Below, one piece after another: positions 49,264 to 55,885 of a stretch of 64,000 nucleotides of DNA. The notes beneath the pieces were generated by a model. The model made no database searches. It was given only the letters and a program-made list of their open reading frames with translations, and was not told the DNA's origin. Origin of the DNA: Amylibacter sp. SFDW26 (GTDB lineage Bacteria; Pseudomonadota; Alphaproteobacteria; Rhodobacterales; Rhodobacteraceae); assembly GCF_009184395.1 (NCBI RefSeq), contig NZ_WEIC01000004.1, forward strand, positions 62,001 through 126,000, read 5' to 3'. A program made the translations under genes and the position numbers. Numbering within the stretch: the stretch's first letter is position 1; each line of letters opens with the position of its first letter.

Positions 49264-49308
49264 TTTTATTGACCCAAGCTATCCGTATCTCTACCTGAAG
49301 GATACCTA

Positions 49309-49354
49309 TCGCTACAACGGCTTCCTGAAGTGGCGATTTAATCTTACTGGAGCG
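49309..49354 (+). ncRNA. SAM/SAH riboswitch upstream of metK
   Basis: The leader directly before metK matches the SAM/SAH riboswitch I know from Rhodobacterales: stem TCGCTA / TGGCGA (49309-49314 and 49331-49336), the loop ACAACGGCTTCCTG, an AU-rich linker and CTGGAGCG. GCTTCC (320-325 of this block, 49320-49325) can pair with GGAGC (49349-49353) to form the pseudoknot that hides the metK ribosome site, GGAG, 8 bases before the ATG. Expected action: ligand binding blocks metK translation. The pairings are visible; the ligand is known from the class. Confidence 0.88.
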
Positions 49355-49360
49355 ATATTT

Positions 49361-50527
49361 ATGTCCCGACAAAATTACCTATTTACTTCGGAATCCGTTT
49401 CCGAAGGTCACCCAGATAAAATCTGTGACCGTATTTCAGATGCAATCTTGGATGCATTTCTAACAGAAGAAGAATTGGCACGTGTTGCCTGTGAAACGTT
49501 CGCTACAACCAACCGCGTTGTGATCGGGGGCGAAGTTGGCCTGTCTACACCTGAAAAGCTTGATGCTTTTATGGGCGGTGTTGAAGGCATCGTACGCGAT
49601 TGTGTTAAAGACATTGGTTATGAACAAGACGGTTTCCACTGGAAAAATATGTCTGTTGAAAACCATCTACATGCACAATCAGCGCATATCGCACAGGGCG
49701 TTGATGCCGCTGGTGCGGGCGACCAAGGTATCATGTTTGGTTATGCTGTAGATGAAACTACAGAATTGATGCCAGCACCAATTCAATATTCACACGCGAT
49801 CCTACGCAATCTTGCAGAAGCACGCCACGAAGGTACGCTTGGAATGCTTGGTCCAGATGCAAAATCTCAGCTTTCTGTGAAATACGTTGATGGCAAGCCA
49901 GTTGGTGTAACATCTATCGTTCTTTCAACTCAGCACTTGGATGAAACAATGACATCTGCGGATGTACAAGCGGTTGTAGAGCCATACATTCGCAATACAT
50001 TGCCAGAGGGTTGGATTTCTGCCGAAACTGAATGGCACGTGAATCCAACAGGCAAGTTCGTGATCGGCGGCCCTGATGGGGATGCTGGCCTAACTGGTCG
50101 TAAAATCATCGTTGATACATACGGCGGTGCAGCCCCTCACGGTGGTGGTGCATTCTCTGGTAAAGATCCAACCAAAGTGGACCGTTCAGCAGCATATGCA
50201 GCACGTTACCTTGCGAAAAATGTTGTTGCGGCTGGTATGGCGAAACGTTGTACAATTCAGCTGTCATACGCGATTGGTGTAGCCAAACCACTTTCGATCT
50301 ATTGCGATACACATGGCACAGGCCAAGTACACGAGTCAGAGATTGAAAAAGCAGTGGCACAAGCAATGGATTTGACACCAACGGGTATCAAAGATCACTT
50401 GCAACTGACACGTCCCATTTACGCACGTACAGCGGCTTACGGTCACTTTGGCCGTACACCAACAGATGACGGTGGTTTCTCTTGGGAACGCACAGATTTG
50501 GTGGAAGCACTGAAAAAGGCTGTTTGA
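49361..50527 (+). CDS. metK: S-adenosylmethionine synthetase
   Basis: Makes SAM from methionine and ATP. It has 388 residues with the N-terminal [36 protein letters not shown] and [32 protein letters not shown] motifs that bind ATP, phosphate and metals. Codon use is biased as in highly expressed genes. Translation should be feedback-regulated by the preceding riboswitch. Confidence 0.97.
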
Positions 50528-53349: not shown

Positions 53350-53393
53350 TGTATGGAATGCGTATGGCAGACGTATGGAAAGCGTATGGCACC
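53350..53393. repeat. Four copies of an 11-bp tandem repeat
   Basis: TGTATGGAATG, CGTATGGCAGA, CGTATGGAAAG and CGTATGGCACC follow directly after the cmk stop codon. All share GTATGG at 11-bp spacing, that is on the same face of the helix. It marks the left edge of the accessory segment; a protein-binding array is possible. Confidence 0.75.
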
Positions 53394-53400
53394 CGCAGGG

Positions 53401-53601
53401 TTAATGAAATAGCAACTGTATGCGGTTTCTGATGCGGATTTCATTTACATTTTCTTGACGGGCAAAGGCGGCGATGATCGGGATCAGGGGATCATCGGCA
53501 TCTATGAATTTTTCTTCGATCAGAAAATCCACGACATGTGGTTTGGTCTTTTGGGTGAAATACACGGTCTGCATACCGCTGCTTTTTGGAAATATCATCA
53601 T
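53401..53601 (-). CDS. Small protein of unknown function downstream of the structured RNA
   Basis: Open frame of 66 residues without recognised relatives: MMIFPKSSGMQTVYFTQ..., charged, ending in IRIRNRIQLLFH. AAGGGAGCGGC precedes the start, about 13 bases away, which is long; an internal Met near residue 10 is another option. It lies on the same strand and just downstream of the structured RNA, and would be read if the RNA terminator is passed. An overlapping plus-strand frame (53455-53640) is less convincing. Confidence 0.45.
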   Translation of the reverse strand: MMIFPKSSGMQTVYFTQKTKPHVVDFLIEEKFIDADDPLIPIIAAFARQENVNEIRIRNRIQLLFH

Positions 53602-53619
53602 GGCGCAAACGCCGCTCCC

Positions 53620-53733
53620 TTAAATCAAATAAACAAATGAAAACGGCCGTCGGTGTGATCCGACAGCCGGGGAGTTCGTAAGTCGCTCATCACGACTGCT
53701 ATGGCCTTTAGGTTGCCCCTGGACATACGCCAT
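53620..53733 (-). CDS. 37-residue open frame inside the structured RNA
   Basis: Starts MAYVQGQPKGHSSRDERL and continues TNSPAVGSHRRPF, ending VYLI, with GGGAGGTT directly ahead of the ATG. The frame runs through three of the RNA's stems, including the terminator. Its central residues look like short frames I associate with prophage antisense/immunity regions, a recollection that I cannot check. It may be a real leader peptide or simply the RNA read as codons. Confidence 0.35.
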   Translation of the reverse strand: MAYVQGQPKGHSSRDERLTNSPAVGSHRRPFSFVYLI

Positions 53734-53872
53734 AACCTCCCCGACCTTTTGAAATCGAGGAGGTATCATTTCGGTTGATACCAACCGGATGAGTGAGGTT
53801 ACGACACCCCGAGACAGACTGCTGCCTGTCCTTCGGTTAGGATAGGGGATGTGTTGGGGCTAGGGAAGGGGC
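53632..53872 (-). ncRNA. Strongly structured minus-strand RNA of unknown class
   Basis: Stems seen (plus coordinates): 53644-53653/53660-53669 with T-rich sequence after it on the minus strand (intrinsic terminator); AGTCG/CGACT 53681-53685/53693-53697; TATGGC/GCCATA 53700-53705/53729-53734; ACCTCCCCGA/TCGAGGAGGT 53735-53744/53755-53764 with one mismatch; GGTATC/GATACC 53762-53767/53777-53782, which competes with CGGTTG/CAACCG 53772-53777/53782-53787; and CCTGTCC/GGATAGG 53825-53831/53840-53846, which competes with GACAG/CTGTC. A TATAAT lies at 53879-53884. Competing stems and a masked GGGAGG suggest a regulatory RNA. The boundaries are estimates. Confidence 0.6.
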
Positions 53873-53878
53873 TGGTTC

Positions 53879-53884
53879 ATTATA
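53879..53884 (-). promoter_or_regulatory. -10 box for the structured RNA
   Basis: TATAAT on the minus strand, about 10 bases before the first stem-forming bases. No good -35 is visible at 16-18 bp, so an activator or an extended context may be needed. Confidence 0.4.
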
Positions 53885-53957
53885 TTAAAAATATTCCTTG
53901 CATCGTTTAATATTTTGCTCCACAAACGAGGTGAGAAAAATTAAACGGAGTGTTTCT

Positions 53958-54593
53958 GTGACTGTTTTTAAAACGGCAATAATTAGTAACGAGGATGATG
54001 TAGCCCAGCGCCTTGAAGAGTTAGGAGTAACTGCAGAACAGATTATTTCTGTAGGTCTTGTTGCACGTGCTCGACAAAATGATGCTAGCCCACTTATGCC
54101 AATCAATGCGCCTGGAAGTCTTGCGTATATTTTTGGTGTAGAAGAGATGCGCCAGCAAATCAGTGGTAGCGATTGGTATTCAGAAAGAAAGTATGGTGTT
54201 GAGGCGATTGTAAATCGTAAAAGTAATATTCGCATTGCCTATCAAAATGTTGATGAAGCATGTTCGATTACATGGAAACCAAAGCCACGTTCAGCAAAAG
54301 GTACAGGCTCAGAAAATCTATGCAGCCCTACTTTATTTGAGCATGCTGGTGTTGACGCTGGACCACTTACAAATGTCTGCTCTGATGGGCTAACTACTTA
54401 TTACATAATGGTAGGGGAAAATGGTGGTATAGAATTATCATGCCCTGTAATCTCAAATAAGACATTTGCGGCTTTTATTGAGCGAATTTTTGTCTACATT
54501 CCTTCTAATGAATTAGATGAAGTTGCAAATGATAATTCTGATAGTCCAATAGAAGATTTTGAGATAAGCGTGTCTCTAAAAGAATCTGAGTAA
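53958..54593 (+). CDS. Unknown 211-residue protein, partner of the XRE-ImmA/IrrE gene
   Basis: I do not recognise this protein. The start is taken as GTG at 53958 with CGGAG seven bases ahead; the frame opens 20 codons earlier without a ribosome site. It is soluble, with four Cys in the middle (EACS, ENLCSP, NVCSDG, LSCPV) and a very acidic tail (EVANDNSDSPIEDFE). Its stop overlaps the ATG of the next gene (TAATG), so the two are translationally coupled. The region is AT-rich compared with cmk and rpsA, which suggests transfer. A toxin, sensor or protease substrate is possible. Confidence 0.78.
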   Translation: MTVFKTAIISNEDDVAQRLEELGVTAEQIISVGLVARARQNDASPLMPINAPGSLAYIFGVEEMRQQISGSDWYSERKYGVEAIVNRKSNIRIAYQNVDEACSITWKPKPRSAKGTGSENLCSPTLFEHAGVDAGPLTNVCSDGLTTYYIMVGENGGIELSCPVISNKTFAAFIERIFVYIPSNELDEVANDNSDSPIEDFEISVSLKESE

Positions 54594-55672
54594 TGTTTAA
54601 TATCAAAAGATTTAAGCTTGCCAAACAAATACGGCGGCTAACTGGTAAAAGCCTAGCTGAAAAAGCTGGGCTAACACCCGTTACAATCTCGAAAATTGAA
54701 AACGGTCACGCCCCAGAAAAAGAAACAATTGAGCGTTTAGTAAAAGCTTTAGGGTTTCCTAAAAGCTTTTTCGTCATGGACGATCCTGAATTGCTAGACA
54801 GTGAGGCTGTCAGTTTTAGAAGCTTATCAAAAATGAATGCTAAAGAACGTGATGCATCTCTTGCTGCTGGGGGGCTTGGAATTGAGTTATATAACTGGAT
54901 CAATGATAAATTTAATTTACCCGAAGTAGATTTAATTGACTTAAACAAAGAGAGAAATCGTCCAGAAACAGCGGCAAGAATGTTGAGGCAACATTGGCAA
55001 TTAGGCGATCGACCTATTGGAAATATGCTTAAATTGCTTGAGTCTAAAGGGATAAGAATATTATCGCTTTCGGAAAGTACAAAGAATGTAGATGCATACT
55101 CCTTTTGGCACAGTAATTCTGCTTATATATTTCTCAATCAAGAGAAAACAGCAGAAAGGTCTATTTTTGATAGTGCTCATGAACTGGCACATTTAGTTCT
55201 ACATCATCACGCAGGTGCAAAAAATGATCGCGGAGCTGAGATGCAAGCTGATCGTTTTGCATCTGCATTTTTAATGCCAGAAGCAGATATAAGAAGTAAT
55301 GTTAGGCATAACGTAATAACAGCTACCGAGGTTATAAAGCTTAAATTTAGGTGGAGAGTATCTGCTATGGCTCTAGCATATCGTTTGCATGCCTTAGAGC
55401 TACTCAGTGATTGGCGTTACAGGTCGCTTTGTATCGAATTAGGACAGCGAGGTTACCGTAGCGGTGAACCAAAAGGTGTAAAAAGAGAAACTTCTGTTGT
55501 TCTAGAAAAAGTGTTTAGAGCTCTTTGGTTAAAGCAATTCACAAAAGAGGATTTAACTGAAGAATTGTCTTTTCCTTTAAATGACCTAGAAAACTTAATT
55601 TTTAAGCTTTCAGTTGTGAATGAAGTGAGCCAATCAGAAGAAGCCGTAGAGGGACTTCGACTCGTTAACTAA
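54593..55672 (+). CDS. XRE regulator fused to ImmA/IrrE metalloprotease domain
   Basis: Protein of 359 residues. Residues 8-60 form an XRE helix-turn-helix (LAEKAGLTPVTISKIENGHA). Residues about 165-260 form a DUF955/ImmA-IrrE zinc peptidase domain with H196-E-L-A-H200 and the third ligand E216 in EMQADRFASAFLMP. A C-terminal 100-residue part has no clear match. In this family the protease cleaves a repressor or partner (ImmA in ICEBs1, IrrE in Deinococcus) and the HTH autoregulates. The natural partner is the coupled upstream protein. AT-rich, and alone in an otherwise housekeeping region. Confidence 0.9.
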   Translation: MFNIKRFKLAKQIRRLTGKSLAEKAGLTPVTISKIENGHAPEKETIERLVKALGFPKSFFVMDDPELLDSEAVSFRSLSKMNAKERDASLAAGGLGIELYNWINDKFNLPEVDLIDLNKERNRPETAARMLRQHWQLGDRPIGNMLKLLESKGIRILSLSESTKNVDAYSFWHSNSAYIFLNQEKTAERSIFDSAHELAHLVLHHHAGAKNDRGAEMQADRFASAFLMPEADIRSNVRHNVITATEVIKLKFRWRVSAMALAYRLHALELLSDWRYRSLCIELGQRGYRSGEPKGVKRETSVVLEKVFRALWLKQFTKEDLTEELSFPLNDLENLIFKLSVVNEVSQSEEAVEGLRLVN

Positions 55673-55701
55673 TCTCACAATAGTGCTTGCTAGCCTTAGC
55701 G

Positions 55702-55885
55702 CCCGATCCGAGGGTGGGTGTGAAGCACCCGCCCGTGGGGGCGGATCGGGTGCTGTCCGTGCTATAGCACGGACTGGGTGCGGCTGGGTTGTGTGGTTTG
55801 TAGGATCGGCTCTCGCGCATTGCTTTGCAATACTTTGCCGCCTGACCATTGCAGGCAATGGTTTTACGCGTGGGCTGAAGCCCAC
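55702..55885. repeat. Cluster of palindromic repeats
   Basis: The block contains CCCGATCCG/CGGATCGGG (55702-55710/55742-55750) enclosing GGGTGGGTG/CACCCGCCC; a 20-bp perfect palindrome centred on CTATAG at 55755-55774; CCATTG/CAATGG at 55846-55861; and GTGGGC/GCCCAC at 55870-55885. GC content jumps against the AT-rich operon just before. This is the look of dispersed REP-type elements rather than a gene; open frames here are reads through hairpins. The stretch 55673-56069 holds nothing else apart from the inverted repeat at 55951. Confidence 0.7.

Follow-up and report, generated by a model that had tools for sequence, protein, structure and literature searches.

The 64,000-nucleotide (nt) stretch of Amylibacter sp. 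SFDW26 analysed here (contig NZ_WEIC01000004.1; "the window") contains a short region in which an earlier note, made from the letters alone, saw an unassigned, strongly folded minus-strand RNA with an intrinsic terminator and competing stems, and which it tentatively likened to phage C4-type antisense RNAs. What is this RNA, and on what might it act? We find a structured RNA at 53640-53874 on the minus strand, one of five copies in its own genome, and consider it likely, from comparisons between copies, that it is the leader of the gene at 53401-53601 and controls it in cis through an antiterminator/terminator switch. That gene, a small open reading frame (ORF) just downstream, had been missed by the earlier note.

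A conserved minus-strand RNA with a pseudoknotted core

The minus strand of 53620-53890 folds at -94.2 kcal/mol (z-score -3.98), and none of 200 dinucleotide shuffles folds as well. The plus strand of the same interval is also well folded (z-score -3.38; 2 of 200 shuffles equal it), so the strand had to be decided by comparing copies. In an alignment of 14 copies (A1), the paired cells, read on the minus strand, contain 83 G-U and 3 A-C pairs, which identifies the minus strand as the RNA strand; one hairpin loop swaps between UUCG-type and GCAA tetraloops among these copies. A plus-strand RNA, despite its good fold, is contradicted by both the G-U/A-C asymmetry and the tetraloops, and the strong fold and the strand given in the earlier note are borne out. 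Alignment A1 pairs 99.2% of 836 cells in a 61-pair structure that includes a pseudoknot, although cells do not count as independent events, the copies being related and in part paralogous. Twenty-six of the 61 pairs show changes on both sides, the covariation score is 0.370 versus 0.181 in shuffles (0 of 500 shuffles reach 0.370), and when the structure is slid by one to three columns only 30.3-46.2% of cells pair. Homologs with compensatory changes, which the earlier note had proposed to seek in Rhodobacterales, were thus found. Model R1 matches the window site (locus L075, positions 1-252) with 264.6 bits.

At Rfam's gathering thresholds the whole window yields no family for the RNA, the sole match being a SAM-SAH riboswitch elsewhere, and at E ≤ 10 the region around the RNA yields three weak matches, all irrelevant; the RNA is indeed unassigned. 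The likeness to C4 antisense RNA (RF01695) is not supported: Rfam matched that family neither in the window nor in the scanned relatives. A retron msr-msd, which the earlier note had named for a check, does not fit either: a reverse transcriptase, of the DRT type, adjoins the RNA at two of the nine other scanned sites (L022 and L025 among L020-L028), and none does so at the window.

Most helix counts (Table 1) come from a wider alignment, A3, with 51 matches from 50 sources; it omits the weak matches L105-L114, L085 and L066, some of them mere terminator-like pieces, and L103 (41.4 bits). Another alignment, A4, has 34 rows and was made for model R2, with 16 further sources dropped to stay below 400 columns. 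Of all the stems, P1c varies most and shows the best covariation, with all 45 ungapped rows fully paired and 35 distinct 5' heptamers. The helices GGTATC/GATACC and CGGTTG/CAACCG had been taken to exclude each other; both are conserved with two-sided changes (in A1, 100% of cells pair in each, and three of the five pairs of each have changed on both sides), and jointly they form an H-type pseudoknot, so they need not be exclusive. Of another two stems proposed as competitors, GACAG/CTGTC is conserved (98.0% of cells), whereas CCTGTCC/GGATAGG pairs in just 70 of 98 cells (71.4%). The H4 hairpin has a GCAA tetraloop in the window and UUCG in relatives. An initial closing helix, P1a (GGGG/CCCC), is invariant in A1 and is therefore not independently supported; compensatory or wobble changes do occur in hairpin A and helix B in the wider set.

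Table 1. Parts of the RNA and the gene that follows it, with paired cells counted in alignment A3.
Feature	Span (strand)	Elements	Support or remark
Structured RNA	53640..53874 (-)	5' end near 53874 (unmapped) to terminator U-tract	model R1, 61-pair structure, G-U/A-C ratio
Hairpin A	(-)	GGGG 53810-53807 with CCTC 53798-53795	201/202 cells
P1b	(-)	hairpin A loop UCGUAA 53804-53799 with UUACGA 53681-53676	292/294 cells, several pair types
P1c	53686..53793 (-)	CUCAUC 53793-53788 with GAUGAG 53691-53686	339/339 cells
H-type pseudoknot helices	53763..53787 (-)	CGGUU/AACCG 53787-53783/53776-53772; GUAUC/GAUAC 53781-53777/53767-53763	244/248 and 229/246 cells
H3	(-)	CUCCUCGA 53762-53755 with UCGGGGAG 53744-53737	386/401 cells; excludes helix B
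Helix B, candidate antiterminator	(-)	GGUCGGGGAG 53746-53737 with CUCCCCGGCU 53674-53665	407/409 cells
H4 hairpin	53700..53734 (-)	conserved internal loop GUAUGUCC / UAAAG	334/341 cells (7 pairs)
Intrinsic terminator	53640..53669 (-)	stem 53669-53644, 10 pairs, then TTTTCATTTG	5' strand GGCU shared with helix B
Small ORF P0003 (P66), candidate regulated gene	53401..53601 (-)	66 amino acids (aa)	no Pfam or PADLOC family

Competing helices, terminator and downstream genes

The conformational competition suspected in the earlier note is supported, but between two helices that it had not listed, H3 and helix B. They have the strand GGUCGGGGAG in common: its last eight bases pair upstream with CUCCUCGA, or the whole strand pairs downstream, in the ten pairs of helix B, with the 3' tail CUCCCC and four further bases. 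That the two helices are mutually exclusive is supported by comparison of the copies. Helix B carries compensatory changes in A3 (AU to UA in four rows, AU to GC in one and GC to CG in one), and in row L115 H3 is kept by a change that disrupts helix B. GGGAGG, previously read as a ribosome site masked in a stem, belongs to the shared strand, and we do not regard it as a ribosome site because the apparent ORF behind it shifts frame between copies; a masked start of an internal peptide (MTYVQGFGLK...) was rejected, its frame not being conserved across copies. The intrinsic terminator is present as the earlier note had reported, and in the window class helix B occupies GGCU, the first four bases of its stem. 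A terminator follows the tail at 32 of the 70 alphaproteobacterial loci with a recognised tail, compared with 2.8 expected from mononucleotide shuffles; within the genus 19 of 21 copies have one, outside it 13 of 49 loci.

An ORF lies at the same place behind 19 of 21 distinct copies in the genus, the remaining two being cut by contig ends, and starts ~51-69 nt past the core (start codons were chosen by hand). It is under purifying selection, with ratios of nonsynonymous to synonymous substitution rates (dN/dS) of 0.144, 0.265, 0.274, 0.148 and 0.158 in five orthologous pairs, in three of which dS exceeds 1.2, and of 0.065 in one paralogous pair. At paralogous sites with different flanks, RNA and ORF form one common block (L020 and L021; 481 nt, 87.1%). 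A strict test, which asked for an ATG with a Shine-Dalgarno (SD) site and an ORF of at least 50 aa starting 36-100 nt past the tail, was passed by 52 of 79 alphaproteobacterial loci (starts 42-77 nt past the tail) versus 9.5% of 3160 random windows. Among 30 loci of the Rfam family RF02221, discussed below, 17 passed, versus 13.2% of 1200 random windows. Some of the loci counted are related copies and hence not independent. The AlphaFold model of the window protein (P66) has a mean predicted local distance difference test score of 79.6, and a Foldseek search with it against the PDB, in which a TraM- or QseM-like fold was considered, gave no match at E ≤ 0.001. Searching viral contigs with P66 gave one weak match. 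Locus L070 has tandem RNA copies (1501-1762 and 2018-2189); a small ORF comes behind the first, and the contig breaks off within the second.

On plasmids and at loci resembling integrative and conjugative elements (ICEs), the same core lies ~65-76 nt ahead of the start codons of genes for TraM (L120, L121, L124), DUF2285 proteins (L093, L096, L097, L116, L123) and an XRE regulator (L115). The Prok-TraM Pfam family was matched after the core in pGV2260 (E 1.5e-34), Bradyrhizobium (8.5e-25) and Novosphingobium (1.5e-11), with a further match, at L117 (0.0028), below Pfam's cut-off. DUF2285 (PF10074) was matched at L116 (E 8.3e-7), and the proteins at L093, L096, L097 and L123 are similar by eye; HTH_3 regulators follow the core in L115 and L094. 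At other class-level loci the next gene encodes a membrane protein, a lipoprotein, or a nuclease-/restriction-like or FkbM-type protein, as judged by eye from the translations and with no family search. Plasmid-type copies have a conserved hairpin, GCGGGGGCGUACCGC, in the terminator's stead, between core and start codon; it is found in most of L115-L125, L154-L159 and L168-L170, with the loop GGGCGYA constant and the stem bases varying. At the TraM/QseM loci of Ti plasmids and ICEs the core thus stands directly ahead of traM and DUF2285 genes, whereas the gene behind the window RNA is chromosomal and encodes an unrelated 66-aa protein. These contexts argue that the RNA is a 5' leader acting in cis on the following gene. 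QseM, which restrains ICEMlSym R7A transfer as its antiactivator, is a DUF2285 protein (PMC10359603), and in an Agrobacterium tumefaciens hfq mutant the level of TraM protein is lowered (PMC4201532), which fits post-transcriptional control and does not demonstrate this RNA. Searches of the open-licence PMC literature, with term look-ups in PMC10359603, PMC4201532 and PMC6341043, turned up no description of an RNA leader before traM or qseM. In pGV2260 (L120, 8557-8889) a gene for a ProQ/FinO-family RNA chaperone lies directly upstream of the RNA and traM.

We propose that the window RNA would act in cis, as a 5' leader, on the small gene at 53401-53601. A core of ~165 nt (hairpin A, the pseudoknot, the H3/H4 arms, P1b and P1c) is conserved in the manner of an aptamer. 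In the putative OFF state, GGUCGGGGAG would pair upstream in H3, leaving CUCCCC-GGCU free and allowing the terminator to form; in the putative ON state, pairing of GGUCGGGGAG with CUCCCCGGCU in helix B would take up the terminator's first four bases, and transcription should read through. The relatives on conjugative plasmids, which have no terminator there, may switch translation instead. Candidate signals are a metabolite, a protein or an RNA chaperone. The sequences compared show the conserved fold and its strand, the competing helices, the terminator and the position ahead of a conserved ORF; that the region is transcribed, that it switches, and that helix B marks the ON state are what we infer from this arrangement.

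In terminator-type riboswitches a conserved core leads straight into antiterminator and terminator helices that exclude each other, and diverse genes follow. The window RNA is like them in its complex conserved core, in the exclusive helices that come next and in the diversity of the genes behind it, and unlike them in that the downstream genes share no evident metabolic pathway. As in riboswitches and other cis-regulatory leaders, a conserved structured core is found in the same-strand 5' leader of genes; likewise, as judged by sequence and covariation, helices that exclude each other are coupled to a terminator or ribosome site.

RF02221 and the weighing of other readings

The known family closest to the window RNA is Rfam RF02221, sRNA-Xcc1, which comes from Xanthomonas and occurs in integron cassettes and on plasmids. 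Its model has 87 positions and covers the 3' half of the relatives, whose matches all fall below the 53-bit gathering cut-off (46.3 bits at L150, 44.1 at L140, 37.2 at L136 and 36.6 at L132). In two overlapping sets of loci it matched 7 of 20 (E ≤ 0.5) and 8 of 11 (E ≤ 10), and it gave no match at E ≤ 10 in the window region or in the window's own genome. The elements come in the same order: helix B is the counterpart of the RF02221 closing stem, GgCcGGggG/CccCCgGcC, and H4 that of the RF02221 inner hairpin, and in several RF02221 loci a hairpin-A-like element can be made out by eye. Rfam models the 3' half as a small RNA (sRNA), whereas the window-type RNA appears to be a longer, pseudoknotted leader. 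RF02221 was found in 47 of 299 genomes of the phylum at E ≤ 1e-4 (35 of them above the cut-off), and 30 loci fetched from this search served as the sample for complementarity tests. A strand equivalent to that of P1b/P1c has a partner upstream of the Rfam model, with a mean Watson-Crick run of 8.43 within loci versus 5.63 between them (0 of 2000 permutations) and an own-locus run of at least 6 in 27 of 30 loci. The same strand is complementary to the start region downstream in its own locus (Watson-Crick run 6.80, versus 5.29 with the regions of other loci; 0 of 2000 permutations). Read by eye, the complementary stretch covers or adjoins an SD-like site in 15 of the 30 loci. Model R2 recovers just 5 of the 30 at E ≤ 10, so the RF02221 and window-type groups are distant. 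In Xylella, PMC12189769 describes seven sRNA-Xcc1 copies, five of them ~380 nt apart in a genomic island.

Several results weigh against a switching leader. The strict ORF test was failed by 27 of 79 alphaproteobacterial loci and 13 of 30 RF02221 loci, and also by the window itself, where 13 nt separate the end of the SD-like AAGGGAG from the ATG. By the criteria used, 38 of 70 loci have no terminator, and this count leaves out 13 loci without a recognisable tail. The fold with H3 and the terminator is predicted at -89.9 kcal/mol and that with an extended helix B at -79.1, a gap of ~11 in favour of H3 in a calculation that does not score pseudoknots; the ON state would therefore need stabilising by pseudoknots or a ligand. 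A scan of 53380-54100 for sigma-70-like promoters found none (1.1 expected), the sequence upstream of the RNA varies between copies, and at L094 the XRE gene begins just 23 nt past the core. Strand exchange with the ribosome site, which complementarity suggests for RF02221 loci, is not extended to the window class. Lastly, the Xanthomonas sRNA-Xcc1 is reported as an 88-nt RNA that gave a discrete band of ~100 nt and whose ends were mapped (PMC2996969).

A discrete band would suit a trans-acting sRNA that ends at the terminator, as sRNA-Xcc1 has been described, with the downstream gene being incidental, and the window class has a strong terminator. sRNA-Xcc1 is, reportedly, trans-acting, as the title of a 2011 paper by Chen has it, and the drop in TraM in the hfq mutant would fit an sRNA too. 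We nonetheless consider this reading unlikely for the window RNA, given the distance that the core keeps from the start codons of unrelated genes, the sharing of RNA and ORF between sites as one block, and the complementarity of the RF02221 stem strand to its own downstream region; moreover, in the most widespread Xanthomonas integron cassette, sRNA-Xcc1 lies upstream of symE, in the same direction (PMC12444791). The presence of a relative in integron cassettes could also point to a folded-DNA signal for recombination or replication (attC-, oriT- or single-strand-promoter-like) that marks sites of cargo insertion, as could the multiple copies, the differing cargo beside the RNA at orthologous sites and the occurrence on conjugative plasmids (in a blastn search, the plasmid-type core of L093 matched 266 of 72,556 PLSDB plasmids, 228 of them typed conjugative). 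The UUCG/GCAA tetraloop swaps, the G-U excess on one strand, the terminator after the tail and the narrow distance to start codons make a DNA signal very improbable. Scarcely credible, in our view, is a toxin-antitoxin-like pair of type III-like layout in which the RNA is partner or antitoxin of the small protein, even though the order is RNA, terminator, small ORF and defence genes adjoin several copies. The core precedes TraM, DUF2285, XRE, membrane and nuclease-like genes (the last two by eye) and so has no fixed protein partner, and no toxin family was matched by the small protein of the window or by two relatives. The RNA of ToxIN has a tandem repeat, and the RNA region here has none.

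A cis-acting leader with an antiterminator/terminator switch thus remains our preferred reading, and the window RNA appears to belong to a widespread family of leaders on bacterial mobile DNA with the apparent capacity to turn the gene behind them on or off, that of a known brake on plasmid transfer included. Tentatively, and with somewhat less than even confidence, we suggest that Rfam's sRNA-Xcc1 is a truncated view of one ancient riboswitch-like class that conjugative plasmids, ICEs, integron cassettes and chromosomal defence-gene sites have taken up throughout Pseudomonadota. This class would gate TraM/QseM-type transfer brakes, restriction-like genes and small proteins on one common cellular signal, via terminator or ribosome-site switching, and in the window's genus it would have expanded to five to nine chromosomal copies, each of which drives its own small protein beside exchangeable anti-phage genes. 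TraM sets the threshold of quorum-dependent Ti plasmid conjugation. If the leader reading is right, plasmid transfer would gain an RNA layer of control, with a switching leader before traM as a testable entry point for signals still unexplained; a catalogued "trans-acting sRNA" would be recast as part of a cis-acting leader, changing the annotation of its copies in many genomes. The RNA also points to a small-protein family without a known match, beside anti-phage genes.

Neighbouring genes, copies and spread

In the window, the RNA adjoins an RmrT-RmrA anti-phage pair at 53958-55672 (PADLOC E 6.5e-77 and 5.7e-171). Besides the DRT-type reverse transcriptases mentioned above, other RNA sites have PDC-M36A (L023) and TIR (L020) in its place. 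When the window's genome (G000) is compared with genome G032 at three orthologous sites (cmk-rpsA, ttcA and fabH-like), the defence genes differ and the RNA and ORF stay; the defence genes look like cargo at common hotspots rather than regulated genes. Among the rpsA-anchored loci, cmk lies within the fetched stretch in 6 of 28. A GTATGG tandem repeat (53351-53389) directly follows the cmk stop and a dispersed repeat (55687-55866) follows RmrA; both recur near other RNA sites and may be ends of exchangeable segments.

The other four copies in the window's genome are 79-87% identical to the window RNA. Strong copies number five in G000, five in G032, nine in G024 (plus one weak) and two in G025 (complete, plus one partial). 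By sequence alone, 7 others among 195 genomes carry the DNA, short matches counted. At E ≤ 0.001, model R1 finds the RNA in 5 of 33 genomes of the genus (G020 at only E 7e-4) and in 33 of 394 genomes of the family, several of these matches being weak and probably due to chance. Model R2, for which at most five or six candidates per genome were scored, finds it at E ≤ 1e-5 in 51 of the 385 class genomes and in 16 of the 299 phylum genomes, 12 of which belong to the class itself. The window RNA itself matched just nine plasmid records by blastn, none covering more than 35% of its length, and six IMG/VR contigs have an exact core motif.

Two copies at different sites in G032 (L026 9649-9851 and L024 8849-9052) are 95.6% identical over ~200 nt, against 78.6% for their G000 counterparts, L023 and the window, a pattern suggestive of gene conversion between copies. 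In three genera, RNA copies lie near tRNA-Thr(CGT) (L087, L090 and L103), and at L086, L087, L089 and L090 the RNA is followed by a membrane protein of ~200-256 aa, alike by eye. The SAM-SAH riboswitch found elsewhere in the window (RF01727, 49.6 bits) lies at 49306-49354, ahead of an ORF at 49361 that is metK by inspection.
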